A model generated the notes under the pieces. That model was given only the letters and a program-made list of their open reading frames with translations. It did not search any database and was not told where the DNA came from. A stretch of DNA of 52,207 nucleotides from a virus, in IMG/VR virus record IMGVR_UViG_3300025872_003055, positions 1 to 52,207 of that record. One strand, 5' to 3'. Made by a program: the position numbers and the translations under genes. Below are positions 9,733 to 44,175 of the stretch, one piece after another; within the stretch, counting starts at the first letter, position 1, and every line of letters starts with the position of its first letter.

Positions 9733-10220
9733 TTCTCCCCCATAATCATAAATGAGTTATTCAAATCAATCCCAGAAACAAATACGTTCCTATACCCACG
9801 ATCAACCATATAATCACGAATCATCTCTGGCACAAATACGTGCTTGTGCTTTCGGTTGTTCCATGGTCTCCAATATTTCTGACTATAATCTGGAAGATAA
9901 AGAAAAAGAACTCCACCATCTACCAGACGTTCATACCAGTAGTTCATTGTCTCAACCCAATCATCAACGTGCTCAAGACAATGACTAGAAAAGATATAAT
10001 CAGGATCTTTCTCTGGAAGATGATTGGCATCCCAAGGATCATCAAAACTCAAATCAATTGGAGTGGATCCAGGAAAAGACCATTCTGGTTTCATACATCC
10101 AATATCATATCCAAACCCAGAACAAACGTGCTTGGCAAACGGAATCGCAAACTGCGAAGCATTACCAATCGCTTGAAAATGAGGGTATTCAGTTTGCTGA
10201 TAATTGATTGTTTTAATCAT
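9729..10220 (-). CDS. SAM-dependent methyltransferase-like protein
   Basis: 163 aa. FGYDIGCMKPEW supplies an SAM motif I-like stretch, and DYIFSSHCLEHVDDW followed by GGVLFLYLPD is the classic type 11 methyltransferase pattern (motif II and post-motif). It may O-methylate a sugar of the glycan built by this operon. The start codon ATG at 10220 overlaps the stop of the previous gene (ATGA). The Rossmann core is short at the N-terminus, so activity is less certain than fold. Confidence 0.72.
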   Translation of the reverse strand: MIKTINYQQTEYPHFQAIGNASQFAIPFAKHVCSGFGYDIGCMKPEWSFPGSTPIDLSFDDPWDANHLPEKDPDYIFSSHCLEHVDDWVETMNYWYERLVDGGVLFLYLPDYSQKYWRPWNNRKHKHVFVPEMIRDYMVDRGYRNVFVSGIDLNNSFMIMGEK

Positions 10221-10969
10221 TGATATTGCCAGGGCAGATTGAATAAGTATCTTGTTTGCGACCAATCACCCCAACGGTGATGAAGGAACATTGGTTTGTC
10301 TTTGACCTTATCAAAGAGTTCAGAAGTCTCAAAGAGATAGTTCCAGGATGTTTCAATAAAGTTATATGCTGCTGCTTTTTCAATGACTTTACACCAGTCA
10401 AACAAAGAGTATCCTTCAATATGCTTTGCCTCTACGACTTGTGCTCCACCATAGTCAGCAGGATTTACAGATATTCTATCACAGATTTCAACTTGTGGTC
10501 TTGTACACCAATAACGATTAACAAGAACATACACATCATCATCTTTGAGTCCTAGGACATCATAAAACAGTTTATCTTCCTTTTCTTGATTGCGAACAAA
10601 CTTAATATGATCTCTCCAATCTGTCCAGTCCATTCCAATACTATCATACTTACCTGCCATGATTGGTTGATAGTTTCCAAAACCCTGAAAGTAAAACAAC
10701 TCATCAGTGATTTCAGTCTGCTTCTCTGGAAGATAATGCTGAATTCCAGGAAACTGAACGTGCTCTGGTAATGGTGGACGAGTCAGTTTTACTTCTTTAT
10801 CATCCCAAGAAATAAAATTAAAGTCTGGAATATAATCGTTCAACCATTCAAACTCAGATACAACTGGCCAATAGACTTCATATCCTTGGTCTTTGATATG
10901 ATGTGCCAGTTTTTGAAGAAATAAAATATCTCCAAGACCACAGGGTTGGTAAATTAATCCTACTTTCAT
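10217..10969 (-). CDS. GT9-like (heptosyltransferase-fold) protein A
   Basis: 250 aa. MKVGLIYQPCGLGDILFLQK is the GLGD-type N-terminal motif of the GT9 heptosyltransferase superfamily. A C-terminal FIETSWNYLFETSEL region would correspond to the nucleotide-sugar binding part. It is paralogous to the gene immediately upstream (10966-11688). Both could transfer the heptose activated by the HldE-like pair. Similarity to GT9 is weak apart from the N-terminus. Start chosen at the ATG overlapping the preceding stop. Confidence 0.6.
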   Translation of the reverse strand: MKVGLIYQPCGLGDILFLQKLAHHIKDQGYEVYWPVVSEFEWLNDYIPDFNFISWDDKEVKLTRPPLPEHVQFPGIQHYLPEKQTEITDELFYFQGFGNYQPIMAGKYDSIGMDWTDWRDHIKFVRNQEKEDKLFYDVLGLKDDDVYVLVNRYWCTRPQVEICDRISVNPADYGGAQVVEAKHIEGYSLFDWCKVIEKAAAYNFIETSWNYLFETSELFDKVKDKPMFLHHRWGDWSQTRYLFNLPWQYQ

Positions 10970-11688
10970 TCTACCTCCATTGGAGTCATCTCTCTCCACT
11001 CATCTCTGGTATACTCAATCCACTGCCATGGTTTCTTGAGAATCCCATCATAGACTCGTTCTGAATACTTATAATGACGTGGATGAATCGTAAGTCTTGT
11101 TGCTTTGAGATCTAATGTCTCCATCACATAATGAAGTGATGTGTCAACAGAATGCATCTCTTCGGCATTCTCAAATACCCAGCACCAATCAAAAACTTTA
11201 CCACCAGGAACGTTGGGATCCATCTCAACAACCTTCCCATCATATCCTTCTGGGATTTGTTGGTAAACTCCTTTCATTGGTTTGTAGACACTGTAGTATG
11301 GATTGACGAAAATAAAAGGATCTCCCTTCTCTAATCCAAGTCGCTTACGGAGATTTTCTTCTCGTTCAAGATTGCGTTCATACTTAAAGTAATCTTGCCA
11401 GTCATCATAAGAAACTCCAACAGCATCATACTTCGTTCCCATTACATCCCAAGATCCTCTTGGTTTGGGAACATTAGACAAATCAAGAACTCCAACCTCA
11501 CCAGAAGGAAGTTGGAGTTGTCCTTGAGCACCAATATGGGAATTAGTAATCATCTGGTCTACGCCAGCAGACCAGCAGGAAGGGGTAACTGGATGATAGA
11601 CAGTATGTTCTTGAGATAATACTGTTGCTATTTTCTGAATAAAGAAAATGTCACCCAGTCCTCCTGGTTGATCAATAATGATATTCAT
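10966..11688 (-). CDS. GT9-like (heptosyltransferase-fold) protein B
   Basis: 240 aa beginning MNIIIDQPGGLGDIFFIQK, with the same GLGD motif as its neighbour. Shared segments include the VG-(V/M)-DWxD-(W/Y)-(F/K)-K-x-xRN region and the V-FDWC-V motif. Tandem paralogs of this kind usually act on successive positions of one glycan, though this is inference. The start overlaps the stop of the dehydratase upstream. Confidence 0.6.
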   Translation of the reverse strand: MNIIIDQPGGLGDIFFIQKIATVLSQEHTVYHPVTPSCWSAGVDQMITNSHIGAQGQLQLPSGEVGVLDLSNVPKPRGSWDVMGTKYDAVGVSYDDWQDYFKYERNLEREENLRKRLGLEKGDPFIFVNPYYSVYKPMKGVYQQIPEGYDGKVVEMDPNVPGGKVFDWCWVFENAEEMHSVDTSLHYVMETLDLKATRLTIHPRHYKYSERVYDGILKKPWQWIEYTRDEWREMTPMEVE

Positions 11689-12665
11689 CAGTTAATCTTG
11701 TCGTACCAATACTTGAGAAGATCATTCAGAGTCGTATCAATATCATACTCTTCCTTGAATCCAGTGAGTTCTACAAGATTGGTAGAATCACCGTGCTGGT
11801 AATAGATCTCATGAGGACGCCAGAAAGGTTCATGAATCTTTTGCTCCACATGATTCAGACCAGACAGTTCAATCAACTTATCGGTGAAGAACTGCATTTT
11901 ACGAGGAGTATCTCCACAGATATTGAAGATGTGATTAGTGACCTCTGGATGAATCATTGCCAGATAATAAGCCCTAACAGTATCCCGAACATCCATCACA
12001 ACACGGGTTGTGTTAAGATTTCCAACCAACAGCACAGGATCCTGAAGACCCTTCATCATTCTGGCAATCTGATAGGCATCAGATGAGATGGAGAAGATCT
12101 TACCTCGGCGGGGACCAGTGTGGGAGAAAGCACGAGTGATGAATCCTTTGATGAATCCATTTTCCATACGTTCCTGAAGATAGACATCAGTTGCTGCCTT
12201 TGATGCCCCATAAGGATTAGCAGGCAGAATCGTATCTTCCCAATGAATCTTACGACCATCTTGACCGACGTTGCCATAGACTTCAGATGTGGAGCAGAAC
12301 ATCAACTTACAATCAGGTTGATGATCCACGATCACCTGAATCAAATTAGCACTACCCATCACATTAGTTTCCATTGTGCCAATCGGATCACGGAAACTAG
12401 AAGGAGGATGAGACTGTGCTGCTAGATGGAAGACACCATCAAACTGATACTTCTCAAACACATTACGCAGTGAGCGGTAGTTGCAGAGATCAGAATAGAG
12501 GAAGGTAATTGAATTATAGACTTCATCGGGCACTACGTCACGAATATCAGTCTCCATACCATTGGTACGACGAATCAAACCATAGACTTCGTGACCTTCA
12601 CTATGAAGAAGATTTGCCAAGTGAGGACCAGCAAACCCAGTGATTCCAGTGATTAAAAACTTCAT
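11688..12665 (-). CDS. GDP-mannose 4,6-dehydratase-like SDR
   Basis: 325 aa extended short-chain dehydrogenase. GITGFAGPHLANLL is the NAD(P)-binding GxxGxxG. CSTSEVYG and NPYGASKAATD give the catalytic S/T-E and YxxxK. SHTGPRRGK is close to the GMD SPRRGE-type active-site loop. It probably makes GDP-4-keto-6-deoxymannose, the first step to GDP-fucose, or reduces it (RMD). No GDP-fucose synthase is visible in the window, so the host or another phage gene would supply it. Confidence 0.82.
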   Translation of the reverse strand: MKFLITGITGFAGPHLANLLHSEGHEVYGLIRRTNGMETDIRDVVPDEVYNSITFLYSDLCNYRSLRNVFEKYQFDGVFHLAAQSHPPSSFRDPIGTMETNVMGSANLIQVIVDHQPDCKLMFCSTSEVYGNVGQDGRKIHWEDTILPANPYGASKAATDVYLQERMENGFIKGFITRAFSHTGPRRGKIFSISSDAYQIARMMKGLQDPVLLVGNLNTTRVVMDVRDTVRAYYLAMIHPEVTNHIFNICGDTPRKMQFFTDKLIELSGLNHVEQKIHEPFWRPHEIYYQHGDSTNLVELTGFKEEYDIDTTLNDLLKYWYDKIN

Positions 12666-13315
12666 TAATTTACAACTCCTTCAATAAGATCTTTACAAAC
12701 TTCAAGGTCAGCATCAACAGGGAACAGAATCAAGAACCCTTGAGCAATATACGATTCAATTATAACATGAGTTTCATCAAACAACTCATAGACAAAATCA
12801 ATTCCATCGGCACCAGCAACGTTCCTTAAATCCCAGTTGCCACCCTCATAAGGACCATCCTTATAAACTCTCAAATCATCAAGAACAAACACGTCCTTTG
12901 AAATATCCCTACCACTTTCTTTGATGACTCTTAGTTCAGACTCAAGAGGAATTCGCTTGGTAGGATCTGGTTCACTAGTATAAGTAGCACCGTTGATATT
13001 AAAATCAGCACCAGGAAAATGAGCATCGTGCCAGAACAGAGTTGGTTCTGGTGACAGAGTTTCCAGAATGGTTTTCATCTCAACATGACTATATCCTTTG
13101 ATGAGATGAAGATTAGGAGTTCCCTCAAACTTTTCTACCAACTTAGCATGAAGTTCATCCATCAACTCAATGGTATAAACATTGAGATCATCTGGACGGA
13201 CATTGAGAATATACGAAAGACTGTCGGCAATTCCAGTGCCAGTCTCTACAAAGTTTTTAATACCAAAAGTCTCAATGACTTCTTTTGGTTTGATTGCCTG
13301 ATAAATTTGTCCCAT
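12665..13315 (-). CDS. Hypothetical protein, possible methyltransferase fold
   Basis: 216 aa. FVETGTGIADSLSYIL looks like an SAM-binding motif I, and later segments (LNVYTIELMDELHAKLVEKF; TLFWHDAHFPG; DVFVLDDLRVYK) alternate strands and helices as in class I methyltransferases. The DAH and DD motifs resemble the FkbM-like proteins found in glycan clusters. Substrate unknown. It lies between the GT10 gene and the GMD-like gene and shares their transcript. Confidence 0.5.
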   Translation of the reverse strand: MGQIYQAIKPKEVIETFGIKNFVETGTGIADSLSYILNVRPDDLNVYTIELMDELHAKLVEKFEGTPNLHLIKGYSHVEMKTILETLSPEPTLFWHDAHFPGADFNINGATYTSEPDPTKRIPLESELRVIKESGRDISKDVFVLDDLRVYKDGPYEGGNWDLRNVAGADGIDFVYELFDETHVIIESYIAQGFLILFPVDADLEVCKDLIEGVVN

Positions 13316-23985: not shown

Positions 23986-24447
23986 ATGAAAAGACTTCTA
24001 TTATCCTTTTCGTTATTCTTCACTACACCTGCATTTGCCGCTGAAATTACAAACAAAATTGTTGATTCTGTCCAATTAGGCGTCCAGGGTGCTGCGGTAC
24101 AATCCAACAGAGTAGGTGCTTCCTACTCGGCATCAGGTACAAATATTAACGTCACAACTCTTGGTGGAGTTGGTGGTGCTGGTTCTTATGCAATCAATAC
24201 AAACGGACAAGCATTTAGTTTTTCTGAAACATCAATTACTGCGGATACTGTTGTCACCACTCAGTCGGCAGCTTCTGGAACAATTGCTACTCCCAACCTT
24301 TATAGCGACTCTACTACTCAGTTAGGTGGTTCTGCTGGTACTCTTGCAGGTACTCTTAGTGGAACTGGTGTCCCTACTATCACTGCTGGTGGTCCTGGAA
24401 GTACTGGTACAGCACAAAGAACAGTTGAGTTAAGTGTATTCAAATGA
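23986..24447 (+). CDS. Exported protein, paralog family member 1
   Basis: 153 aa. Signal peptide MKRLLLSFSLFFTTPAFA. The mature protein is Gly/Thr/Ser-rich and beta-strand-prone. A SASGTNINVTTLGGVGGAGS block followed by YAINTNGQAFSFSETS is shared with the next gene, where it reads VTGTNINIPDRPGPG then YTIQTQGAPFQFSETY. No Cys. It looks like a secreted or surface fibrous protein. No family recognised. First gene of a nine-gene plus-strand operon. Confidence 0.65.
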   Translation: MKRLLLSFSLFFTTPAFAAEITNKIVDSVQLGVQGAAVQSNRVGASYSASGTNINVTTLGGVGGAGSYAINTNGQAFSFSETSITADTVVTTQSAASGTIATPNLYSDSTTQLGGSAGTLAGTLSGTGVPTITAGGPGSTGTAQRTVELSVFK

Positions 24448-24806
24448 GACATATAACTCTCGGACTGGTTGCAGTCTTGGGAGTTATTACTCCTTCATAT
24501 GCTGGTCCAGTTACGCCTAACTTTACGAGTGGCACAATTACTTCTGAGACCAAAACTCACACCGAAGTGATTGAGGTCATTAAACAAATAGAATATTCTA
24601 CTGGGACATCTTATACAGTCACTGGTACTAATATCAATATTCCAGATCGTCCAGGTCCAGGAGCGAATTATACAATTCAAACGCAGGGTGCTCCGTTCCA
24701 GTTTAGTGAAACTTATTTGACTCCTGGAATTTCTAAAGAAACATGGATAGATCGCAAAACCGTAGAAGATTCGGTTACAAACAGCATCTCTGTATTCACA
24801 CAATAG
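24444..24806 (+). CDS. Exported protein, paralog family member 2
   Basis: 120 aa. Signal peptide to SYA (residue 20). It shares the GTNIN-x9-Y-(A/T)-I-(N/Q)-T block with the gene before, so the two arose by duplication. The ATG overlaps the previous stop (ATGA). It ends NSISVFTQ, similar to the LSVFK end of its paralog. Function unknown; an extracytoplasmic location is inferred. Confidence 0.65.
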   Translation: MRHITLGLVAVLGVITPSYAGPVTPNFTSGTITSETKTHTEVIEVIKQIEYSTGTSYTVTGTNINIPDRPGPGANYTIQTQGAPFQFSETYLTPGISKETWIDRKTVEDSVTNSISVFTQ

Positions 24807-25366
24807 TATTTTTACTGGGTTTAGGTGCTTATGCTCAACAGGCACCATCCAATACAAATATAGCAGGACCCCAAGCATCTGCGACTGGTAATGTGACGAA
24901 CCAGGCAGTGCAAGTGTTACAAGGTCCTTTTGCTGTGAATACTTATGGTGCTGGTGTTTCGTGTCAAGGTCCAACACTCAACTTACAAACCTTTGGGTAT
25001 AACAATTTAAATCTCAATAAAGATCCAGAAAGTTTTCAAACAGGTTCAATAAATGCAGGAGTATCTGCAGGATTTTCTATTCCCCTTGATGGTTCGTTAC
25101 AAGAACTCTGTAAGCAAAGAGTTCGTACAGAGATTGCAAGGCAAGAAAGTGAGGTTTCAAAAAGTCGTTTAGATTTTGAATTGGTAAGATTATTAAAATG
25201 TGGAGAAGCAAAAAAAAGTGGAATTGATTTCCACCCAACAAGTCCTTATGCAAAAGTTTGTGCTGATGTAATTGTTCAACCACCTAAAATTGTTACAATA
25301 GATCCCGTAAATTCAATAAATACTAAGTTACCAACGGTACAAACAAATGTCCAAGTCCGCAAATAA
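24743..25366 (+). CDS. Exported protein, 207 aa
   Basis: A hydrophobic stretch IVFLLGLGAYA followed by QQAPSN looks like a signal peptide, although the ATG at 24743 gives an unusually long basic N-terminus and a 64-base overlap with the previous gene. A non-ATG start near 24788 (ATT) is possible. The mature part has a Gly/Asn-rich beta region, a helical middle and a Pro/Val C-terminus. Three or four Cys suggest disulfides. No family recognised. Confidence 0.6.
   Translation: MDRSQNRRRFGYKQHLCIHTIVFLLGLGAYAQQAPSNTNIAGPQASATGNVTNQAVQVLQGPFAVNTYGAGVSCQGPTLNLQTFGYNNLNLNKDPESFQTGSINAGVSAGFSIPLDGSLQELCKQRVRTEIARQESEVSKSRLDFELVRLLKCGEAKKSGIDFHPTSPYAKVCADVIVQPPKIVTIDPVNSINTKLPTVQTNVQVRK
25315..25322 (+). 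promoter_or_regulatory. Late box AATAAATA (plus strand)
   Basis: Inside the end of the preceding gene, 25 bases before the Lys-rich peptide gene. Confidence 0.4.
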
Positions 25367-27427: not shown

Positions 27428-28141
27428 TTACTTAATAACCTCACAGCATCTATTGTAATATCTCTTACGATCATCTAACCCATTATAACCACCGTTGACT
27501 CTTTTAGTAACTTGATCAACTGTTGGATTTGAGTCACATAGAGCATTCATATTATTATTATGCCACCAGAATCCTGCGCTAGTGACTGGATACTTATCAG
27601 CAACATAAGATACACCCTCCATTACTTTGGGGTCTTTAATATAATTTGCAAATGCCTGATAGTTTGCACGACCAGTCATTTGAATGTATCCAGCACCCTT
27701 AAACTTCTTACCATCTCCTGGTTGAGTATTACCAAGATCTGAACGACCTTCGTAATCAGCACCAGAAGCAAGTTCTTCCTTATATCTTCCACCACCAGAT
27801 TCGTGTGAAATCTGTGAAAGGAAATGACGAATACGGACTGGTGTATTAATTTTGAAGAAGTTGAGTCCAGAATTCATTTCAGCAACTTCTGCATCTGTGA
27901 TTAGATTTTCACCACAATTCCAGATATGTGCGAGTTGTGCCTTGGTGACTAATGTGGTTCCGCTACTACCACCAGTTGAGGCAGCGGCACTAGTCTTTTT
28001 TCTATAAATCTCTGCCCAATCGGCATTATCTTCCAGATACTTAACGGGTAGATTATCTTCTAACCATTGAACTGCTTTGATATGATTGGGATTCTTTTCA
28101 TCATAAAACTTAAAAAAGTTATGAAGATCAATTTTTGCCAT
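27428..28141 (-). CDS. Endolysin, glycoside hydrolase family 19 (chitinase-like)
   Basis: 237 aa from the ATG with GGAGGTAAAA in front; the longer TTG start is less likely. The N-terminal 50 residues ([16 protein letters not shown]...WAEIYR) form a domain shared with the C39 protein upstream. Then a linker and a GH19 domain: [18 protein letters not shown] with the catalytic Glu, [18 protein letters not shown] and the C-terminal WWHNNNMN region. It cuts the glycan backbone of peptidoglycan at lysis. Confidence 0.9.
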
Positions 28142-28226
28142 TTTTACCTCCAAAGTATTTTTGATAGAGTTGATTTGCTTCTAGGTGCTTTCCGTTATTT
28201 GTAAGGTCTTTAATCACTTTTAACAT
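28128..28226 (-). CDS. Hypothetical 32-aa peptide
   Basis: ATG at 28226, stop overlapping the endolysin start region. It begins [20 protein letters not shown], amphipathic. Unknown; it may act through translational coupling. AAAAGAAAG before the ATG is a weak Shine-Dalgarno. Confidence 0.4.
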
Positions 28227-28239
28227 CTTTCTTTTGAAA

Positions 28240-28911
28240 TTAATCGAAGATTCTGCCCCATCCATCATTTCCTCCTGGGCACCAACGGTACTTAAGCATT
28301 GCTTTGGTGTAAATGGTTTTCTTACCGTTTGTCACAGGACCAGTATAGTTATCATTGCAGGAACCATACGGATCGTTTACATAATATCCTTTACCATCAG
28401 GTGTCTTACCAATTACAACTACCATATGACCACCGGTAGGAGCAGTTAAAGGTCCACGATGTAAAATACCAATGACTACTGGTTTTCCTGCATCTAGACT
28501 CTTATCAATATCAGCAAAAGAAAGATTATAACTGAAATGTGATTTAACTCCGTATGCTTCTAGAACTCTTGTCTGTACAGCATGATCAGTTGTGTCACCA
28601 ATTTCAAAAACTTTCTTTACATACTCATCATCACCTTTAATACTTCCTGGTTTTAAAAATGCTAAACACATCGCACAAGAAGAACTATTGCAAGTACGAT
28701 GTGCGTCTCTATAGTTATCCACCTGATTGAAATATGGAACATTTAGAACTGCTGGTGTAGGTGGTTTAGTTCTATAAATTCCAATCCAATCTGTTTCAGA
28801 ATCATCAAGAAATTCAGCAGGTAGATTGTCTTCTAACCACTGAACTGCTGCTACATGGTTTTCATTACCATCATCATAATACTTAAAAAAATTGTGAAGA
28901 TCTAGGGTCAT
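28240..28911 (-). CDS. C39-like peptidase with endolysin-type N-terminal domain
   Basis: 223 aa. Residues 1-50 (LDLHNFFKYYDDGNENH...DWIGIYRTKP) are homologous to the start of the GH19 endolysin. Then a papain-like C39 family domain: VPYFNQVDN, TCNSSSCAMCL with catalytic Cys74, GGHMVVVIGK with the catalytic His and YYVNDPYGS with the third residue. It would cleave a peptide bond, presumably in peptidoglycan cross-links, so the two enzymes could attack glycan and peptide together. Confidence 0.85.
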   Translation of the reverse strand: MTLDLHNFFKYYDDGNENHVAAVQWLEDNLPAEFLDDSETDWIGIYRTKPPTPAVLNVPYFNQVDNYRDAHRTCNSSSCAMCLAFLKPGSIKGDDEYVKKVFEIGDTTDHAVQTRVLEAYGVKSHFSYNLSFADIDKSLDAGKPVVIGILHRGPLTAPTGGHMVVVIGKTPDGKGYYVNDPYGSCNDNYTGPVTNGKKTIYTKAMLKYRWCPGGNDGWGRIFD

Positions 28912-29661: not shown

Positions 29662-29736
29662 GATCTTATGTTATAATTCAATCAATCCTTATCCCAAGTT
29701 CCTCTACTCATCCCATCTCTATCCCTACTTCTTTGT

Positions 29737-31200
29737 TCATCTTCTTGCTTCAGTCACATAATATTCAACGATATCATCCCATGTATAATCCGAAAGATCA
29801 TAACCTTCCCCTAAAAGTTCATCAACCCATTCAGATACTTGCTCAGCAAGTAAATAATCATTGTATTCTTGCATGATAATTCCAATGGCATTCTGATCCA
29901 TTTCCATCATGATATAATTTGCTTCGTCAATCGTATCTGCATGACCTTTTCCAATTAAATACTCTAAAATAATGTCATAAGGTTCATAGGATTCTTTAGT
30001 AGTTGTGGTTGCATTATTTTTTTGTTGTTCTTCTCTTTTTCTCATTCTTTCTTTTTCTGCTTCAATATCTGCCTGTACAGAACTGGGATTTATTTGAGCA
30101 GTTGGTGATCCTTGAGTTGGAGTTTGATCCTGTTTCTCATAATCACTTGGTTTATCTCTTAATCTTGAAATAACATCATAACCTGCTTGTCCTGGTTTTA
30201 CTCTTGCGGCGAGTTTTGGATTTGCTCTTGCCCAGGTCTCCATATCTTTTTCTTTGTCACCAGTCTGTCCTGATGGTTGTGGAGTTCTTCTTTGTGGAGT
30301 ACCTCTCCCTGCCCCTCCACCGCCTCCAGAAGGAGTAACGCCTCTACCACCGCCACCTCCAGAAGGTACCCCTGAACCCCCTCTAGGCGCCGCTGGTGGT
30401 GTTGAAGGTTGATCTGCTCTTTGAGAACTTGATGGTTTTTGTTCTTGCCCACCACTTCCGGCACCTGCCAGTTTTGCGCCAAGATACCCACCTAATCCAC
30501 CCAATCCAACAATTCCTACGCCTTTAAGAATTCTTTTTGCTGTTGTACCTGTTAATGCCGCCTTTGCACTTTTAGCAATATCTTTTACTTTTTTAACTGC
30601 TTGTCCTATTTTTGCTTTTGTCAGTAATTCTGCAGATTGTCTTCCTGTTAATTTACCACCTCCAACTGGAGACATTGTAGAACTATAACCACCAACATTA
30701 GATTTCCTTGCAGAATTTTGAGCAACTCTCTGAAGCATTTTTCTTGCTTCTTCTGGGTTTTTCGCATTTGATAGTATTTTAGATACTCTAGTTCTTGCAG
30801 GTTTTGTTACCGCTCTTTTTGCAAGACCTAAAGCACCTTTTGCAACTCTTGTAATTAGTGATGCTATACCTTCATCAATTGCAATATCAAAAATTTCCAA
30901 CTGTTCTAAAATATAATCTTCAGGAACTGTACTTTCTGTAAGGATATTTTCATTAAAATTTAAATATTTTTCAATAATAATTTCTTCAGATGAATTAGAA
31001 AGAAATCCAATAATACCTTCGGCACTATATCCCTCATAAACCATTGAAATTGAAATAGTAGAAAGAATATCTTCTACTATTTCTGCCGTTTCGGAATCAT
31101 AATATTCAGACTCTTCATTCAAAAAATCATTTTGTTGAATATTAATTTCTTCATATAGATATGCAATATCATTAATGGAACCTTGCGAAACTCTAGACAT
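29737..31200 (-). CDS. Low-complexity virion-type protein with C-terminal modules A and B
   Basis: 487 aa. Helical N-terminus (with a divergent module-A-like stretch around 45-90), a basic Ala/Lys region, one hydrophobic segment (GVGIVGLGGLGGYLGAKL, about 235-255), then a Pro/Gly/Gln linker of about 110 residues. The C-terminal 80 residues contain module A (YDIILEYLIGKGHADTIDEA) and module B (EQVSEWVDELLGEGYDLSDY then TWDDIVEYYVTEA), both also found in the gene at 32655. A late box 30 bases upstream and a private terminator make it a late single-gene unit. No enzymatic motif. Probably a virion internal or tail protein. Confidence 0.65.
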   Translation of the reverse strand: MSRVSQGSINDIAYLYEEINIQQNDFLNEESEYYDSETAEIVEDILSTISISMVYEGYSAEGIIGFLSNSSEEIIIEKYLNFNENILTESTVPEDYILEQLEIFDIAIDEGIASLITRVAKGALGLAKRAVTKPARTRVSKILSNAKNPEEARKMLQRVAQNSARKSNVGGYSSTMSPVGGGKLTGRQSAELLTKAKIGQAVKKVKDIAKSAKAALTGTTAKRILKGVGIVGLGGLGGYLGAKLAGAGSGGQEQKPSSSQRADQPSTPPAAPRGGSGVPSGGGGGRGVTPSGGGGGAGRGTPQRRTPQPSGQTGDKEKDMETWARANPKLAARVKPGQAGYDVISRLRDKPSDYEKQDQTPTQGSPTAQINPSSVQADIEAEKERMRKREEQQKNNATTTTKESYEPYDIILEYLIGKGHADTIDEANYIMMEMDQNAIGIIMQEYNDYLLAEQVSEWVDELLGEGYDLSDYTWDDIVEYYVTEARR

Positions 31201-31229
31201 GGTTATGAATTAGTGCTTTTATATACAGA

Positions 31230-31237
31230 TATTTATA
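31230..31237 (-). promoter_or_regulatory. Late box TATAAATA
   Basis: Perfect late box, 30 bases upstream of the ATG at 31200. Confidence 0.7.
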
Positions 31238-31241
31238 AAAA

Positions 31242-32576
31242 TCAACCCCCTGGTTTATATTTTACGCCAAGTTTTTTATTACGCTCCACATCAGATCTGA
31301 TTGCTCTTTGTAGTGCTTGTTGTGCTTTTGCAGCATCGTGTTGTTTATATGCTCCAGCAAAAAATGTTCTTCCAATTCTTTCTAATGGATTCGAAGAAGT
31401 TTTGGCAAGAGATTGAGCACTTGGACCTGCCTTATAAACTGCTTTACCACCCTTAAATGCAAGATGACCTGCAACTGATTGACCACCTCTATTAACTACG
31501 CCAGTCTTGGCAAGTTGAACAGTTTTTCTTTGTTTACCAACACCGGTTGACATAAATGCTGGTCCACCTGGTTTCTTCTGACTAAATGATGTTGGACCAC
31601 CAATACCTTTAATAGTGGTTCCTGCTTGACTCTGGCGGTTTGCTTTTGCCATTGCTGCTCTTTCTTTTGCATTTGCTCCAGCAATGGTATCAAATGCCTT
31701 TTCTGCAGCAGCACCTCCTGCAAGGGCACCAACAGTTCCTGTAGCAGCACTCAAGATACCTCCACCACCAATTGCTCCCGCAGCACCACCAAGCAATCCT
31801 CCTGCGGCGACTGTGGCACCTTTAGCAAGAGATCTAGCCCATCCAGATCCTTTTGCTCTTTCATCTGCAGTAGATAATGCAGTATCAAGTACTGCAGATG
31901 CTGGACCTGCAAATTTTGAAAATTTTCCTAATCTTGATGCACTTCCTGCAGCAGTTAATGCGGTGTCTGTTGCTTTTGCCGCTTGTCTTGTTGGTGTTAC
32001 AATTGTTTTTCCACTTGGTCCAGTTCCAGCAGCTGCTCTTTTTAATCTTTCTGCAGCAGATGCTCTTCTTGCATTAGTTGACTGAAGTTGTGCTGGTGCA
32101 GGAGGTTTAATAGTTGAAGAAGATGCAGTGGCAGTTGCTGCTGCTGGTTTTGCAGCAGGAAGTGCTTTTTGTTTTGGAGTTACATCACTTACAGAAACTG
32201 GTTTGATTTCTGGAGTTGTTGCAGGAGTTGAGGGAGATGCTTTTACAATTGCTGCTGGTTTTGGAGGTGCTGACTGTGCAGATGCAGGTGCTGTTGGTTT
32301 AGGTGGAGCACTATATGGAACTATGTCACCACCTCTTGTAGGACTTTTAACTTTAGTAGTTTTCCCTTGTGGATTTATTTCTTTTCTTGCAGATCTAATT
32401 GATAGATCAGCAGCAGAACCCTGTAAAGTTTGTCCTTTTTTACCATAAGCAGCGTTACTTCCACCCAATCTTCTTCTAGATGCTGATGGTAAAGCATTAT
32501 ACTGTGCTCTAGTCATACCAGCAGGTATTTCTTCACTTAAATATGACTCTTGCAAAAATTGACTAAAGGACTTCAT
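31242..32576 (-). CDS. Ala/Pro-rich virion-type protein with T4-like capsid-targeting N-terminus
   Basis: 444 aa. The N-terminus MKSFSQFLQESYLSEE matches, residue by residue, the T4 internal-protein capsid-targeting pattern (MKTYQEFIAEA in T4), with L8-Q9-E10|S11 fitting the prohead protease rule (L/I)-x-E|x. Long Ala/Pro/Thr-rich stretches follow, a hydrophobic Gly/Ala segment (GGLLGGAAGAIGGGGIL), and a basic C-terminus. No enzyme motif. Late box 22 bases before the ATG. Inferred to be packaged and ejected with DNA. It could equally be a scaffold-associated core protein. Confidence 0.65.
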   Translation of the reverse strand: MKSFSQFLQESYLSEEIPAGMTRAQYNALPSASRRRLGGSNAAYGKKGQTLQGSAADLSIRSARKEINPQGKTTKVKSPTRGGDIVPYSAPPKPTAPASAQSAPPKPAAIVKASPSTPATTPEIKPVSVSDVTPKQKALPAAKPAAATATASSSTIKPPAPAQLQSTNARRASAAERLKRAAAGTGPSGKTIVTPTRQAAKATDTALTAAGSASRLGKFSKFAGPASAVLDTALSTADERAKGSGWARSLAKGATVAAGGLLGGAAGAIGGGGILSAATGTVGALAGGAAAEKAFDTIAGANAKERAAMAKANRQSQAGTTIKGIGGPTSFSQKKPGGPAFMSTGVGKQRKTVQLAKTGVVNRGGQSVAGHLAFKGGKAVYKAGPSAQSLAKTSSNPLERIGRTFFAGAYKQHDAAKAQQALQRAIRSDVERNKKLGVKYKPGG

Positions 32577-32597
32577 TTTTCTTTCTTACTTTTTAGT

Positions 32598-32605
32598 TAT
32601 TTATA
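32598..32605 (-). promoter_or_regulatory. Late box TATAAATA
   Basis: Perfect late box 22 bases upstream of the ATG at 32576; it follows directly on the terminator T-run. Confidence 0.72.
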
Positions 32606-32636
32606 AAAAAAAAGAGGGTTGGTTAGACCCTCTTTA
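32604..32636 (-). terminator. Terminator of the 32655 gene
   Basis: AAAGAGGGT-CTAACCA-ACCCTCTTT with a T-run on the minus strand. Confidence 0.88.
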
Positions 32637-32654
32637 AAAAATTATTCTTATTAA

Positions 32655-33755
32655 TTATCTAGATGGTCTTGTAGATTGAGTCTGAACAGTTCTTGGTTTT
32701 ACAGCTTGACCTCTAAGATTATACTTCGCTTCATCTTTCATTTGTGATTCTCTTGTTGGAAAGTATCCAGACTCAAGAATCTGATCTCTCCAATCTTCAC
32801 TCATATTTGCCATAATCACTGCTGCTGCCTCTTCGGTTTCGGCATAACCTTCATCGATCAGATAACCTTTTACGATGTCAAAAAGATCTAAATCCATATT
32901 CAATCTGCGCTGTCTGATTTGTTGCTGAAGATTTGGTTTTGGTGCAGCAGCAGGAGCAGTAGTTGTTGCTGCAGCAGGAGCAGGAGTTGCAGGTCCAGTT
33001 GCAAGTGCTCCAGTACCAGTCAAGTTTGCACCTGTTGCTCTAAGTTGCTGTGCTTGTCTAAGTTCAGCAGAAGTTGGAATTCTTCTTTCAATAGAAGAGG
33101 GAGCAATTGGAGCAGGACCTGATGGTGCAGCAGTTGGAACGGGTCTTGGTGGTGCAGCAGTTGGAACGGGTCTTGGTGGTGCAGCAGTTGGAACGGGTCT
33201 TGGTGGTGCAGCAGTTGGAGCGGGTCTTGATGGTGCAGCAGTTGGAGCGGGTCTTGATGGTGCAGCAGATCTTGTAGAAGAAGATGGTCTAGAAGAGGAT
33301 GCTGGTTGTCCACTCAAAAATCCACCAAGAGCAGAAACTGCTGCTCTTGGTTGAGCAGTTACATTTCTAGTAAAGGCATTAAGAAATCGTGCTTCTGGAT
33401 TTCTAGAAGTAGTAGTTTGTCCAGTGTATCCCCTCCACCCAGAACCTACAGCATCTGTAAAACGACCAAGAGCACCAGAAATATTTCCACCAACTGCTCT
33501 ACGTGCTTGTCCAAACTGTTGACGTAGATTAGCGCCAAAATTTTGGGCACCAGGCATACCTAAAATTTCTGTAAGGTATCCTTCATAAAGATCATCCCAA
33601 GTATAATCACTAAGGTCATAACCTTCTTCTACAAGTGAATTGACCCAGGATTCAACTTCTTCCCATACTTGCTCTTCAGTAAGTTCTTGTGAAGCATAAA
33701 CTTCATTATATGCCTCCATTAAACCTAGAGCATCAGTTCCAGTAAGTCTTGACAT
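32655..33755 (-). CDS. Pro/Ala-rich virion-type protein with modules B and A
   Basis: 366 aa. It begins MSRLTGTDALGLMEAYNEVY, the same 20 residues as the next gene upstream. Module B follows (WEEVESWVNSLVEEGYDLSD then YTWDDLYEGYLTE at residues 31-63), ending L61-T62-E63|I64, a possible prohead-protease site. Then a Pro/Ala/Arg-rich centre with five 27-bp repeats (TAAPPRPVP units), and module A near the C-terminus (LFDIVKGYLIDEGYAETEEA then AVIMANMSEDW). Late box 30 bases upstream; own terminator. Inferred virion internal protein. Confidence 0.65.
   Translation of the reverse strand: MSRLTGTDALGLMEAYNEVYASQELTEEQVWEEVESWVNSLVEEGYDLSDYTWDDLYEGYLTEILGMPGAQNFGANLRQQFGQARRAVGGNISGALGRFTDAVGSGWRGYTGQTTTSRNPEARFLNAFTRNVTAQPRAAVSALGGFLSGQPASSSRPSSSTRSAAPSRPAPTAAPSRPAPTAAPPRPVPTAAPPRPVPTAAPPRPVPTAAPSGPAPIAPSSIERRIPTSAELRQAQQLRATGANLTGTGALATGPATPAPAAATTTAPAAAPKPNLQQQIRQRRLNMDLDLFDIVKGYLIDEGYAETEEAAAVIMANMSEDWRDQILESGYFPTRESQMKDEAKYNLRGQAVKPRTVQTQSTRPSR
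33124..33258 (-). repeat. Five tandem 27-bp repeats
   Basis: Five in-frame copies, three identical and two with the same two changes, encode repeats of (T/A)AAP-(P/S)-RP-(V/A)-P. They are expected to change copy number by slippage. Confidence 0.95.
33695..33755 (-). repeat. 61-bp repeat, copy 1 (N-terminal module)
   Basis: Identical at all 61 bases to 34385-34445; the two genes share the same first 20 codons without a single change, including the wobble positions. Confidence 0.97.
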
Positions 33756-33784
33756 TGTTTCTCTTTTAATTTTTTATATATTTT

Positions 33785-33792
33785 TATTTATG
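33785..33792 (-). promoter_or_regulatory. Late box CATAAATA
   Basis: Late box 30 bases upstream of the ATG at 33755. Confidence 0.68.
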
Positions 33793-33818
33793 AAAAAAGA
33801 GGATCTTATTGACCCTCT
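33793..33818 (-). terminator. Terminator of the 33840 gene
   Basis: GAGGGTC-AATAA-GATCCTC (one G.U) followed by TTTTTT on the minus strand. Confidence 0.82.
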
Positions 33819-33839
33819 TGGCATTATTCTTGTTAAGTA

Positions 33840-34445
33840 TCAGAAACCTCTACCATAATTAGTTGAAGCACGTCCACTAGATCCACCAGATCCGCCTGTT
33901 GGTTTAGGTACATTTCTCGAAACTAGAGGTGTTCTTGGTCTTTGTACTGGAGCAGGACTAACTCCAACTCTTCCACCTTGAAGATATGGATTAGGTGGAG
34001 GAGTTTGTCTGCTGACTCTGGCACCTGGAGGTACTGGTCCACCCATTCTCATTGTTGTTGTACCTCGGTTAGGATCATTTAAAATTCTTTCACCTCTAAT
34101 ATTTTCACCTGGTCTCCTTAATCTACCTGTAGTTGTATATCTAGTATTCCGATTCCAAGGAAGAACATCGTGACCACCTTTTGCCCCAAGTTCTGCGGCA
34201 GTTGATCCTAAAAATCCAGTTCCACTACCTAAAATACCTTCAACAATGCTCTGGACCCAATTCTCACTCATGTTAGACATGATTGCAAGCGCACCATCTT
34301 CAGTAGTGGCATAACCCTCATCGAGTAGATGTGAGAAAATAATATCATAAAGTTCTACTTGTTCATTTGTGAGTTCTCTAGGAACATAAACTTCATTATA
34401 TGCCTCCATTAAACCTAGAGCATCAGTTCCAGTAAGTCTTGACAT
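33840..34445 (-). CDS. Virion-type protein with module A, 201 aa
   Basis: The first 20 residues are identical to the 32655 gene. Module A (LYDIIFSHLLDEGYATTEDG then ALAIMSNMSENW, residues 32-63) ends in I67-V68-E69|G70, another match to the prohead-protease rule. The rest is a Gly/Arg/Pro-rich low-complexity tail (e.g. SRQTPPPNPYLQGG) ending NYGRGF. No enzyme motif. Late box 30 bases upstream; own terminator. Inferred internal or head-associated protein. Confidence 0.65.
   Translation of the reverse strand: MSRLTGTDALGLMEAYNEVYVPRELTNEQVELYDIIFSHLLDEGYATTEDGALAIMSNMSENWVQSIVEGILGSGTGFLGSTAAELGAKGGHDVLPWNRNTRYTTTGRLRRPGENIRGERILNDPNRGTTTMRMGGPVPPGARVSRQTPPPNPYLQGGRVGVSPAPVQRPRTPLVSRNVPKPTGGSGGSSGRASTNYGRGF
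34385..34445 (-). repeat. 61-bp repeat, copy 2
   Basis: Identical to 33695-33755. Confidence 0.97.
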
Positions 34446-34474: not shown

Positions 34475-34482
34475 TATTTATA
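34475..34482 (-). promoter_or_regulatory. Late box TATAAATA
   Basis: Perfect late box directly after the terminator T-run, 30 bases before the ATG at 34445. Confidence 0.72.
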
Positions 34483-34505
34483 AAAAGAGGGACTTAAAGT
34501 CCCTC
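34482..34505 (-). terminator. Terminator after nrdB and the 50-aa gene
   Basis: GAGGGACTT-T-AAGTCCCTC with TTTTTAT on the minus strand; the stop codon of the 50-aa gene is in the apex. Confidence 0.88.
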
Positions 34506-39478: not shown

Positions 39479-39682
39479 CTATGGTTTCTTTTTAGACCAG
39501 CGTTTTCTTGCTCCAGGGAACGTACCCTTTCCTATTATTCCTCTTCTCTGAAAACTCATTACAGGATCATATTTCACAATATTTCCACTCGAAATATTAT
39601 TAGTAGGAGGAGATGCCGCAATACCCATTGCGCCATCTTCTTTAAGAATTCTAATAATAGAAATGATTTTATCGATGTTCAT
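39479..39682 (-). CDS. Hypothetical virion-type protein, 67 aa
   Basis: ATG overlaps the stop of the upstream gene (TAATG). An earlier in-frame ATG at 39709 (MFITIAGNLMNIDK) is less likely. A short helix (IISIIRILKEDGAMGIAASP) then a basic tail (GKGTFPGARKRWSKKKP). The basic C-terminus points to nucleic-acid or capsid-core contact. No family recognised. Confidence 0.55.
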   Translation of the reverse strand: MNIDKIISIIRILKEDGAMGIAASPPTNNISSGNIVKYDPVMSFQRRGIIGKGTFPGARKRWSKKKP

Positions 39683-40053
39683 TAGATTGCCTGCAATTGT
39701 GATAAACACTCTTGATCTGGTTCAATATCATGAATCTGTGTTTTAGGATATTCTGGTATTCTATTTAAAAATACTAGAAAACTCTTAATCAAAGGCCAAA
39801 GATTTGATTCTAAATTATAAAACAATAATGGTATGGCAGCATCATCAAAGACATTAAAAAGAATTGTTAAATGATTTAGAATCAGATGTATCTTAAGAAT
39901 ACCTGTATTTTTATATCGATTCAAAAGTCTTTTAATGTATTTTATTCTTTTCAGATCATCTTCGAAATCGTCTAAGGTAAGTGATTGTGGGTTATTATAG
40001 AATTTTATTGCGAATAACAAATAATTATCTTCATTCAGTTCATCAAATCTCAT
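39682..40053 (-). CDS. Hypothetical 123-aa protein
   Basis: MRFDELNEDNYLLFAIKFYN opens an all-helical soluble protein with an ILKIHLILNHLTILFNVFDD centre. A conserved small protein of T4-like cyanophages as far as I can judge, but no function. It lies between a late structural gene and the 67-aa protein and is coupled to both by position. Confidence 0.65.
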   Translation of the reverse strand: MRFDELNEDNYLLFAIKFYNNPQSLTLDDFEDDLKRIKYIKRLLNRYKNTGILKIHLILNHLTILFNVFDDAAIPLLFYNLESNLWPLIKSFLVFLNRIPEYPKTQIHDIEPDQECLSQLQAI

Positions 40054-41136: not shown

Positions 41137-42798
41137 TCAGTCTCCAGATCTATATCCTCTAATACCACCTGTAGAATCTACAGAATATACATCATTTGGG
41201 AATGGATCTGGTTTTGGTTTTCTTTGAGCAACTTTTTGTGCGGGTGTTGGTCCGGCACTAGCAGGTCTTTTTCTCACTTTTTTCCCGGTTTGAGGGTCTT
41301 CAGTTCTTTCATTTTTTTGCTTTTCAAGTTTTCCTACACCTCTTTCTGCTTTATGTTGTTCAACTGTTCTTCCACCCCTAGTCATAATTCCTGGAGTTGT
41401 TCTTCTAACTTCTCTCATAGCAGGACTTAAACTAGTTCTTGGTTCTCCTTTTCTTGCTCTTGCTCTTTCATTGATTTGATCACCTTCTGGTTCATAAGAT
41501 GCTGCCATAACAATGGGATTTTTTACTCCCATTGATTGAAATTTAGATTTCACAAGACTAACCTTTGTAGGAAGAGATCTTTTATCTTCTTTATCATCAC
41601 ATCCACATTCAGATTCTTCTTTCATTGCCTGCTTACGAATCGTGGCAAAGTATACCTTTTTTCCCTTTTCGGTTCCATACTGTTGTTGCATACTCGCTTT
41701 CATGCCAGAAGGATCATATTTTTGCTTCAGTTTTTTCTCTTTCTTCTTTTTTGTTGCAGTCATCTTTTTTTCTTGCAACAAATTAAGAAATCTAGAATAA
41801 CCATTTTCAGAAATGAATTCACCATCAGGAACATGATGTGCCATCAAGGCGCTATTATACTTATTTGATGCATTTACACCTCTACTATCAGGTGGATTTA
41901 CTGTGATTTTATTTTTTCTTGTTGCCAAATCAATTTGATTTTGATTTGCATTTGGATTTACATACTCCGAAGAATCAACCTGTGGTAAATTTGCAAGAGT
42001 TGAAACTTCATAAAAATATGATTCCTTTACACTTGAAGTATCTTTTCCATCAGGTACTCCTCCCTTTTTACGCTGAATTGCATTATGAACTGCACCAGCA
42101 TGTTCTTTTGCACCACTTTCTATTTTACCATCGCCATCATAATCTTTTTTTGCCTTTTTACCTAATACTTCAGATGTTTTTTCGCCTTTTTTTCTTTCGC
42201 CTTCATAAGGGGTGCCATACTCGGTCATTTCAACATCAAGACCTTTTGCCCTCAATTGATTAATTTTTTCACGAGTCGCATATCTTACATAGGTGACACC
42301 ACTATCTGGATCATGAACTCTTACTTTATATTTTTTACCTGAACCCTCTTGACCTTCTTGTAATTCTTTCCTAAGTTGATCCTCATCAATATAATTTGTT
42401 TTTTCAACAAATACCTTATAAAGAGCATTCATCATCGAATGAGATGCAAAATCTTTCATTTCCATATCAAAATCTTCTGCTCTCATTGCATTTCCACCAC
42501 TACTTCCTCCATCACCAAAAAGTCTTTTTCTGACTTCAGATTTTTCAACTTCACTCATTGAACTGTTTTGCATATATTGAGAATATGCGGTACGAAGAGG
42601 TACGTTCTCTCTTCTTGCACGATATTTAATGTCATAGACTGCCTGACGAATTCTCTTATCAGGAGTGCTTTCACCGCCTTTTTCAGATCCTCTTTTCTCA
42701 TCTCTTTCTCCACCACCACTTGGTTTTGATTGTGAAGAGAGTGATGCCTGTGGATGAGGTCTAGAAGGAAGATCCTCTGCAATATGCTTCTTTTTCAT
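41137..42798 (-). CDS. Basic virion-type protein, 553 aa
   Basis: Highly charged, Lys/Arg/Gly-rich protein without hydrophobic segments. It contains YDGDGKIESGAKEHAGAV (an EF-hand-like calcium-binding DxDGDGxI loop), a Cys cluster SECGCDD and a long basic tail. The N-terminus MKKKHIAEDLPS ends in I-A-E|D, compatible with the prohead-protease rule. Probably a DNA-contacting internal or core protein. A late box CATAAATA overlaps the end of the upstream gene. Confidence 0.6.
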   Translation of the reverse strand: MKKKHIAEDLPSRPHPQASLSSQSKPSGGGERDEKRGSEKGGESTPDKRIRQAVYDIKYRARRENVPLRTAYSQYMQNSSMSEVEKSEVRKRLFGDGGSSGGNAMRAEDFDMEMKDFASHSMMNALYKVFVEKTNYIDEDQLRKELQEGQEGSGKKYKVRVHDPDSGVTYVRYATREKINQLRAKGLDVEMTEYGTPYEGERKKGEKTSEVLGKKAKKDYDGDGKIESGAKEHAGAVHNAIQRKKGGVPDGKDTSSVKESYFYEVSTLANLPQVDSSEYVNPNANQNQIDLATRKNKITVNPPDSRGVNASNKYNSALMAHHVPDGEFISENGYSRFLNLLQEKKMTATKKKKEKKLKQKYDPSGMKASMQQQYGTEKGKKVYFATIRKQAMKEESECGCDDKEDKRSLPTKVSLVKSKFQSMGVKNPIVMAASYEPEGDQINERARARKGEPRTSLSPAMREVRRTTPGIMTRGGRTVEQHKAERGVGKLEKQKNERTEDPQTGKKVRKRPASAGPTPAQKVAQRKPKPDPFPNDVYSVDSTGGIRGYRSGD

Positions 42799-42816: not shown

Positions 42817-44175
42817 TTACTTTTTCCTTTTTTTATTTATGAAATTAATACCATAAGGTTTTCCACCTACTTGCAGATTTTCTGCACCCATTCCAATTGC
42901 ACCAGGAGTCATCATGGATGCATATTTAAATGCACCTAGTGTCCCCACTAAAGTATTTGGTTTTCCAGGAAGTCTCATCATATTATCCATATGTTTTTCT
43001 GAATAAGATTCCTTTACATCCTTAATCCAGGACTTAAACATAATACCATCTTCGGTTACACAAATTAAATGATTTGTACCTCTACGAATAACTCTTCCAT
43101 TAAGACCAGTATTTAGATTTTCGACAAGTGTTCCAACTTTATAAATTCTACCATTCACATAATTTTCACGAAGAGATTGTTGATCATATTTTGGTGCAAT
43201 TTCCCAAGTGTTATATCCCTCTTGTTGAATTTCTTGAATACCCATTCCTTGGCGAACCATATCAAATAATTGAATTGCTTCTTTATTTTTGATTGTTGAA
43301 GGAAGACCTGTTCTAAAAGTTATAAAATCACCTTCTGCTGCGGCAAGTCTTAATCTTGATGAAGATACTCCGTCCATTCCATTACCATCTGGATCTTGAT
43401 CTCCTGAGGGAATAACCTCAATTGAATCAAATTGATACAATTGATCATTATAATTATTGGCAAGTTTTTCGAATTCTTTTACTCTACTGGAACCCGCAAC
43501 AATTCTAATACTTGAATATCCATCATTGTGTGCTCTTTTAAGAACATCAAAAATTGTAATGCAATTAGGATCATTAACAATTCTTTCACTGTGATCCGGG
43601 AACATTCTTCTCATTAAAGATATTTTTGTATCTGGATCTAATGGGTTTTTCTTTTTATCCAAACTTCTTGATGGGACAATGATATAATCACTGCCATCCT
43701 CTTGAGATATCATTGCCGCAGTATCCATCAACTGTTGATGTCCAATTGTTGGAGGATTAAATCTTCCAAATGCAATTGTCAGAGAACCTTTTGTTTTTTC
43801 AACAGGAGGTGGAGTAAATACTGGAGGTTCTTGTGGAATAGGTTCTTCTTGAGGTAAAGGTTCCTGTTGTGGAGGTACTTCTTGTTGAGGTGGAAGTTCT
43901 TGTTGTTGCGCCTGAACTGGAACCTGTTGTTGCGATGGAGTTGGATATGCGGATCCAAGAGGAATATTTTTCTCGAATTCACCTTGCTTTGGATCCTTAC
44001 CACCAATAATTTGTCTCTTATTATAATATTTTAATTGCCCGCCAACAGTCTTTGCCTCAAATTCACCTGTTGCTCTATTATACCAACCACCATGACCATC
44101 GCCTACAAGTCCAAGTCTTTTTGCCTGAACAGATGCACCAGTTGCCTCGGTAATAAATTGAAGAAAAGTTTTCAT
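42817..44175 (-). CDS. Capsid-targeted nucleotidyltransferase-like protein
   Basis: 452 aa. Residues 1-11 MKTFLQFITEA follow T4 capsid-targeting sequences, with I8-T9-E10|A11 at the prohead-protease position. A Gln/Pro-rich linker (about 80-130) precedes a cytidylyltransferase-like Rossmann domain: LTIAFGRFNPPTIGHQQLMD with the (H/T)xGH signature, then VPSRSLDKKKNPLDPDTKIS and GVSSSRLRLAA (the S-S-x-x-R/T motif). It resembles NMN adenylyltransferases. A nucleotidyltransferase domain in a capsid-directed protein suggests an ejected enzyme, or a recruited fold without activity. Late box CATAAATA 51 bases upstream. Confidence 0.7.
   Translation of the reverse strand: MKTFLQFITEATGASVQAKRLGLVGDGHGGWYNRATGEFEAKTVGGQLKYYNKRQIIGGKDPKQGEFEKNIPLGSAYPTPSQQQVPVQAQQQELPPQQEVPPQQEPLPQEEPIPQEPPVFTPPPVEKTKGSLTIAFGRFNPPTIGHQQLMDTAAMISQEDGSDYIIVPSRSLDKKKNPLDPDTKISLMRRMFPDHSERIVNDPNCITIFDVLKRAHNDGYSSIRIVAGSSRVKEFEKLANNYNDQLYQFDSIEVIPSGDQDPDGNGMDGVSSSRLRLAAAEGDFITFRTGLPSTIKNKEAIQLFDMVRQGMGIQEIQQEGYNTWEIAPKYDQQSLRENYVNGRIYKVGTLVENLNTGLNGRVIRRGTNHLICVTEDGIMFKSWIKDVKESYSEKHMDNMMRLPGKPNTLVGTLGAFKYASMMTPGAIGMGAENLQVGGKPYGINFINKKRKK
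42834..42841 (-). promoter_or_regulatory. Late box CATAAATA
   Basis: Inside the last codons of the nucleotidyltransferase-like gene, 36 bases before the ATG at 42798. Confidence 0.55.

Follow-up and report, generated by a model that had tools for sequence, protein, structure and literature searches.

Four minus-strand genes at positions 29737-34445 of the IMG/VR virus record IMGVR_UViG_3300025872_003055 (the window, which covers this record in full, 52,207 bases) are, with fair probability, genes for late, virion-packaged, basic low-complexity cargo that resembles the internal proteins of phage T4. A 20-residue N-terminal tag (N-tag, LxE↓AYxxVY; the arrow marks a candidate cleavage position) would act as their leader, and two small modules, A and B, as add-ons. 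Since purified virus particles are reported to contain a relative, the proteins are probably packed together with the viral DNA; the targeting function probably lies in the N-tag and not in A or B as such. Judged by its sequence, the window represents a genome fragment of a freshwater (lake) T4-like cyanophage near S-SRM01; this Synechococcus phage (T4-like, from a reservoir) is the nearest isolate, approximately 77% identical in DNA across 65% of a query of 7.1 kb. The four genes are flanked by two endolysin genes and nrdB, and S-SRM01 gp269, gp270, and gp271 agree in order and layout with their three window orthologs.

Modular layout of the proteins

The open reading frames (ORFs), their modules, and their N-terminal elements, including a start that resembles the T4 capsid-targeting sequence (CTS), are as follows.

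29737-31200, minus strand: ORF of 487 amino acids with an N-terminal helical region ending ILTE↓S, a basic low-complexity middle, and C-terminal modules A and B; ortholog of S-SRM01 gp271
29872-29979, minus strand: module A, diverged subtype, residues 408-443 of ORF 29737-31200 (phmmer, tblastn)
29749-29862, minus strand: module B, residues 447-484 of ORF 29737-31200, ending VTE (phmmer)
30934-30945, minus strand: candidate prohead-protease site ILTE↓S, residues 86-89 of ORF 29737-31200; [LI]xE kept in the compared orthologs of this A-B (AB) family
31242-32576, minus strand: ORF of 444 amino acids without A or B, with a T4-CTS-like start, basic and A/G/P/S-rich; ortholog of S-SRM01 gp270
32547-32576, minus strand: T4-CTS-like N-terminus MKSFSQFLQE↓S of ORF 31242-32576, by comparison with T4 ipII/ipIII (MKTYQEFIAE↓A) and S-CREM2 virion proteins
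32655-33755, minus strand: ORF of 366 amino acids with N-tag, module B, a basic Pro/Ala/Ser-rich middle, and module A; ortholog of S-SRM01 gp269, matching phrog_3708
33696-33755, minus strand: N-tag (20 amino acids) of ORF 32655-33755 with LME↓AYNEVY (sequence comparison)
33567-33683, minus strand: module B, residues 25-63 of ORF 32655-33755, ending YLTE↓ILG (phmmer)
32772-32885, minus strand: module A, residues 291-328 of ORF 32655-33755 (phmmer, tblastn; three-helix model)
33840-34445, minus strand: ORF of 201 amino acids with N-tag, module A, and a Gly/Pro-rich basic tail (phmmer)
34386-34445, minus strand: N-tag (20 amino acids) of ORF 33840-34445, DNA identical to 33696-33755 (DNA comparison)
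34239-34352, minus strand: module A, residues 32-69 of ORF 33840-34445, ending SIVE↓GIL (phmmer, tblastn)

A phmmer search of all window ORFs placed module A in three proteins (E-values 1e-22, 3e-11, and 3e-5) and module B in two (3e-24 and 2e-10), and tblastn with module A against the whole record hit exactly these three places; the matches are not due to chance, because S-SRM01 and many environmental contigs show these layouts as well. The different orders and positions of A and B that an initial annotation had described from the sequence are thereby confirmed, with two amendments: the three proteins are not all neighbors, as ORF 31242-32576 separates two of them, and module A is present in all three but as a diverged subtype in ORF 29737-31200. 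The low complexity reported there was also found, in the basic middles of the proteins, and so was the identical 20-residue start of ORFs 32655-33755 and 33840-34445, which extends to 61 identical nucleotides. This exact copy (33695-33755 and 34385-34445) starts precisely at the ATG and stops at about the end of the N-tag, while the upstream DNA is unrelated; it is best taken as a recent tag-sized exchange. Concerted evolution of N-tags in general was considered but not supported, as identity within loci (8 pairs) equals identity between loci, at 0.71; the exact copy in the window is exceptional. A kinship between A and B was likewise not upheld, because the hhalign match between them stemmed from the common N-tag.

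Scans of IMG/VR for the two modules, which the initial annotation had proposed for cyanophages, recovered 485 stretches encoding B and 272 encoding A; as the alignment of module A was too diverse for a scan of this collection, a single A sequence served as query. Removal of identical C-termini left 172 module proteins in 172 loci, many of them orthologs, so that the counts overstate the number of independent events. Their layouts are B-A (66), A (56), and A-B (34), plus less frequent combinations. Among 112 cases of B, 76 are N-terminal; A occupies the C-terminal position in 144 of its 177 cases. The modules are shuffled among proteins, and they look cyanophage-specific, with no relative of N-tag plus B among 84,980 bacterial and archaeal genomes. 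Additional A copies occur in S-SRM01 gp229 and gp231, and further A proteins in P-SSM2, S-CRM01, B23, DSL-LC02, and S-SCSM1; protein 263 of the marine phage ACG-2014f clearly has the layout N-tag-B-low-complexity-A, and its gene has a late-promoter motif. In P-SSM2, a stand-alone protein of 51 amino acids (PSSM2_140; 2459-2614 of the searched stretch), near gp23, gp3, and uvsY, consists essentially of module A.

The AlphaFold model of module A from ORF 32655-33755 consists of three helices (mean predicted local distance difference test, pLDDT, 80); the model of N-tag plus B, of lower confidence (mean pLDDT 65), also has three helices, one of which spans the N-tag. Foldseek returned no significant match in the PDB (best E-values approximately 1 for A and 6 for N-tag plus B); its matches to RNA polymerase beta' (E above 1) and TadA were dismissed as chance level, as were the matches of a PDB sequence search, and in BFVD only cyanophage relatives come near the modules. 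No Pfam match at E 0.001 or better was found in 70 diverse relatives, and the window proteins gave only weak Pfam matches under the curated cut-offs. Of the 70 relatives, 58 match phrog_3708, and one matches a tape-measure PHROG at 5e-6.

Candidate leader, candidate cleavage motif, and charge

The best candidate for a targeting element is the N-tag, which the initial annotation had mentioned only in passing. The EAYxxV tag (LxEAYxxVY) starts 95 of the 172 module proteins versus 3 of 1418 other ORFs; among 87 unique N-tags, all 87 have E at P1 (where the search accepted E or Q) and 76 have L or I at P3, with P2 unconstrained. The tag contains [LI]xE↓A, as does the T4 capsid-targeting sequence. 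In T4, ten CTS residues, the first ten of IPIII, are enough for head targeting, and the prohead protease gp21 cuts after L/I-X-E (PMC9026906). The T4 ipII and ipIII products start with MKTYQEFIAEA, with which the A/B proteins share only the short hydrophobic-x-E-A motif.

Candidate cleavage motifs also close the helical regions that follow. Both N-terminal modules in the window end in [LI]xE (YLTE↓ILG and SIVE↓GIL), and in the AB family the differing N-terminal domain is closed by ENILTE↓S or by a variant that retains [LI]xE. The tails of N-terminal B modules have L or I at P3 in 46 of 55 unique sequences, as against 2 of 25 unique C-terminal B tails, which mostly have V (VxE); in 12-residue windows from the middles of the same proteins, the background chance of [LI]xE is 6%. 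Module A ends in [LI]xE in 11 of 11 N-terminal and 113 of 134 C-terminal copies; since A carries the motif at either end, its presence is hardly informative about N-terminal processing. The prohead-protease motif of the initial annotation stands as a conserved [LI]xE at the end of N-terminal regions, matching the gp21 motif (PMC9026906), while cleavage at these sites is a prediction.

The charge distribution follows the same layout. In 69 B...A proteins, the mean charge is -15 in the front part, +19 in the middle (range 2 to 30, all positive), and -8 in module A, and A, G, P, S, and T account for 58% of the middle. Loss of the acidic leader, leaving a basic core, would be in line with T4-like internal proteins, in which lysines are in contact with DNA (PMC3012670). 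In the mechanism proposed here, the N-tag would act as a capsid-targeting-like leader and bring the precursor into the core of the prohead; a gp21-type protease would cut behind the [LI]xE of the tag, behind the [LI]xE that closes the next helical domain (B or the differing N-terminal domain of ORF 29737-31200), or behind both; and with the acidic front removed, the basic core would stay in the head beside the DNA. Modules A and B would be small acidic helical modules that work as protein-protein adaptors or as N- or C-terminal propeptides.

The initial annotation had assigned the targeting role to A and B themselves, as capsid-core tags recognized at either end of the protein by scaffold or protease; this proposal is possible, though we regard it as unlikely and as less well supported than a leader role for the N-tag. 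No other parts of these otherwise differing proteins are as widely shared as A and B, the two modules are acidic, A mostly terminates in [LI]xE, and the processing of T4 Alt at both ends (PMC9026906) provides a precedent for C-terminal propeptides. However, the predominantly C-terminal position of A, its [LI]xE ending irrespective of position, and the missing canonical P3 in C-terminal B do not support A and B as such as targeting tags; in S-SRM01, the protease, the scaffold, and the major capsid protein gave no match to A or B, and virion cargo detected by mass spectrometry (MS) in S-CREM2 and S-SCSM1 (NMNAT, Cas9-like protein, kinase) has a CTS-like start without A or B.

Probable late expression and virion presence

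All four window genes carry TATAAATA or CATAAATA 21-29 nucleotides upstream on the same strand, as judged by motif and spacing; NATAAATA is the reported cyanophage late promoter, and its motif is also that of T4 (PMC2984593). The promoter and terminator features are as follows.

31230-31237, minus strand: late promoter TATAAATA for ORF 29737-31200 (consensus, PMC2984593)
32598-32605, minus strand: late promoter TATAAATA for ORF 31242-32576 (motif match)
33785-33792, minus strand: late promoter CATAAATA for ORF 32655-33755 (motif match)
34475-34482, minus strand: late promoter TATAAATA for ORF 33840-34445, directly after a terminator hairpin at 34487-34505 (motif match)
32611-32635, minus strand: terminator-like hairpin between ORFs 32655-33755 and 31242-32576 (sequence)
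33797-33819, minus strand: terminator-like hairpin between ORFs 33840-34445 and 32655-33755 (sequence)

Such terminator-like hairpins lie between several genes, and three of their T-tracts run straight into a late-promoter motif (34475-34505, 33785-33819, and 32598-32635). The motif [TC]ATAAATA was found 10-45 nucleotides upstream of 146 of 167 module genes, mostly at a spacing of 24-30 nucleotides, versus 143 of the 633 other genes at the same loci that encode 150 amino acids or more, a control set that includes other late and CTS-tagged genes. Across the window the motif is not enriched (20 found, 18.5 expected), so that its placement carries the information.

The virions of cyanophage S-SCSM1 were analyzed by MS, and 45 proteins were reported (PMC9602691). 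The genome record labels 48 genes as virion proteins; the labels appear to be MS-based, a link inferred from the record, because RegA is labeled whereas the terminase small subunit (terS) and the head completion protein (gp4) are not. One labeled protein, S-SCSM1_89, starts with MDSKTFNSLSEAYAAVYSN, and has module A near its C-terminus and a late-promoter motif 25 nucleotides upstream; no other protein of this phage has module A or a convincing EAYxxVY tag. The description of the window proteins as virion proteins in the initial annotation thus gains some support from a relative with the same N-tag and module A in an MS-annotated genome, and from their late-type genes; the head as their location is a further, predicted step. 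A second, indirect line for virion presence may come from S-CREM2 proteins 111 and 6, which were MS-detected in virions (PMC10665884) and have segments in common with ACG-2014f protein 263 and the B-carrying S-SZBM1 gp082.

S-CREM2 itself, for which virion MS is available, encodes no A, B, or N-tag protein and therefore tests the CTS only. The narrow pattern MKx[FYL]xxF[IL]xE, written after some of these sequences had been inspected, picks 4 of 219 S-CREM2 proteins, among them a kinase and a nucleotidyltransferase, and all four were MS-detected in virions (hypergeometric p 0.003); a broad pattern, also chosen after viewing sequences, is weakly enriched among virion proteins (9 of 18, p 0.01). 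In S-SCSM1, a slightly wider CTS pattern picks two proteins, of which one, the NMNAT, is virion-labeled. Three virion-detected S-CREM2 proteins annotated as Cas9-like, kinase, and SAM hydrolase (7704-10313, 10579-12846, and 3837-5081 of OR473000) have the CTS-like N-termini RFASFMAEA, MKRFDAFLTEE, and MKDFDSFLEE, which suggests deliberate loading into the head. The window contains a related cargo gene.

42817-44175, minus strand: NMNAT/cytidylyltransferase, start MKTFLQFITE↓A, with a late-promoter motif; homologs in virions

Its start, MKTFLQFITEA, matches the T4-like leader pattern, as does MKSFSQFLQES of ORF 31242-32576. NMNAT/cytidylyltransferase homologs were detected in virions of S-SM1 (PMC3037559), S-CREM2 (PMC10665884), and S-SCSM1 (PMC9602691); MS hits are not marked in the GenBank annotation of S-SM1. 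A short GLVGDGHGGWYNRATGEFEAKT segment in ORF 42817-44175 also occurs in the N-terminal regions of two S-CREM2 virion proteins, the Cas9-like protein and the APH-like kinase.

As a caveat, several points weigh against the interpretation as T4-like head cargo. Genomes with virion MS contribute one protein with A and N-tag and no B protein; the virion label is not equivalent to the head interior, and a tail location is possible. S-SCSM1_89 lacks B, and the [LI]xE of its tag is the sole one in the first 50 residues. The motif [LI]xE is short; in module A it may merely be part of the last helix, and the P3 difference of C-terminal B, which is largely one protein family, could reflect lineage. The likeness of the N-tag to the T4 CTS covers few positions and could be convergent.

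The proteins might also be tail, baseplate, or neck components with A and B as tail assembly-contact domains, although this is rather improbable. Tail proteins are likewise late and present in virions, the B module of S-SZBM1 gp082 is encoded near tail sheath stabilizer and terminase genes, and the single tape-measure PHROG match points the same way; yet basic low-complexity cores, [LI]xE after an acidic leader, and T4-CTS-like neighbors are traits of head cargo, and the 70 relatives lack Pfam domain matches. Least probable are co-purifying non-structural late proteins, for example lysis-related or host-interacting ones, with the tag as a localization or interaction peptide and an incidental [LI]xE: the adjoining endolysins and nrdB and the virion-labeled RegA of S-SCSM1, which indicates that contaminants exist, would fit this explanation, but a lysis-gene neighborhood also fits T4, and [LI]xE is conserved while P2 is free.

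Known systems and neighboring genes

The interpretation as T4-like head cargo draws on several parallels. Like the cyanophage proteins, T4 IPI, IPII, IPIII, and Alt combine a short N-terminal leader with [LI]xE↓A, a basic mature part, and diverse bodies behind a common leader; ipIII and ipII adjoin the lysozyme gene e, as the cyanophage genes, with their late-type promoter motifs, adjoin endolysins. In contrast to the T4 internal proteins, the cyanophage proteins carry one or several of the shuffled helical modules A and B in addition, at either terminus, their bodies are long and Pro/Ala/Gly/Ser-rich, and they have the tag LxEAYxxVY where T4 has MKTYQEFIAEA; between the bodies, no sequence homology was found. 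The head ejection proteins of PhiKZ and SPN3US similarly have long N-terminal propeptides (tens to hundreds of residues) that end in a P3-x-E site (PMC10052503), but P3 is A or S there, and no sequence relation was seen. The virion NMNAT/cytidylyltransferase (T4-GC190; S-CREM2, S-SCSM1, S-SM1) is comparable as MS-detected cargo, with T4-CTS-like N-termini in S-CREM2 and S-SCSM1; unlike the A/B proteins, it has an enzyme domain and neither A nor B. The window ORFs and their relatives match phrog_3708, which covers the N-tag/B region and an A region, as well as phrog_27516 and phrog_22522; these families carry no assigned function, and their modular, tag-based, late/virion interpretation is new. 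Targeting leaders and proteolytic release are already known from T4, whereas the arrangement in modules, the LxEAYxxVY tag, and the distribution of this tag across cyanophages appear to be new among searchable papers.

More broadly, and more tentatively, T4-like cyanophages may possess a modular head-cargo system, in which a leader (LxE↓AYxxVY or the T4-like FxxF[IL]xE↓A) and exchangeable acidic helical modules would bring a large and variable cargo of enzymes (NMNAT, kinase, Cas9-like) and basic fillers into the head, to be delivered together with the DNA, and in which the modules would move from gene to gene by recombination of tag-sized DNA. Many proteins of cyanophage virions lack an explanation; should the tag and the [LI]xE rule prove valid, head-loaded proteins could be read from sequence and many "hypothetical" late genes would gain a testable role, and such proteins would perhaps be injected into major photosynthesizers of oceans and lakes.

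Several neighboring genes and orthologs have features of their own. S-SRM01 gp271 (29710-31308 of the searched stretch) continues after module B with a basic extension (KYGTAKGRKKLAKK...AAAMWKNLGK) that has no counterpart in ORF 29737-31200. The endolysin-like genes at 27428-28153 and 28240-28911 (minus strand) have an N-terminal stretch in common (DLHNFFK(F/Y)YD...). Beside the NMNAT gene, the gene at 41137-42798 (minus strand) has a late-promoter motif and the start MKKKHIAEDLP, which is kept in relatives at other loci; in S-SCSM1, the gene after the NMNAT, S-SCSM1_92, is virion-labeled. Finally, small proteins encoded at 39479-39709 of the window (minus strand), at 24342-25235 of the stretch L092, and by S-SCSM1_97 contain a stretch that resembles the N-arm of the major capsid protein (GFTG...GYDPLM); among such proteins, S-CREM2 ORF160 was virion-detected and S-SCSM1_97 is virion-labeled.

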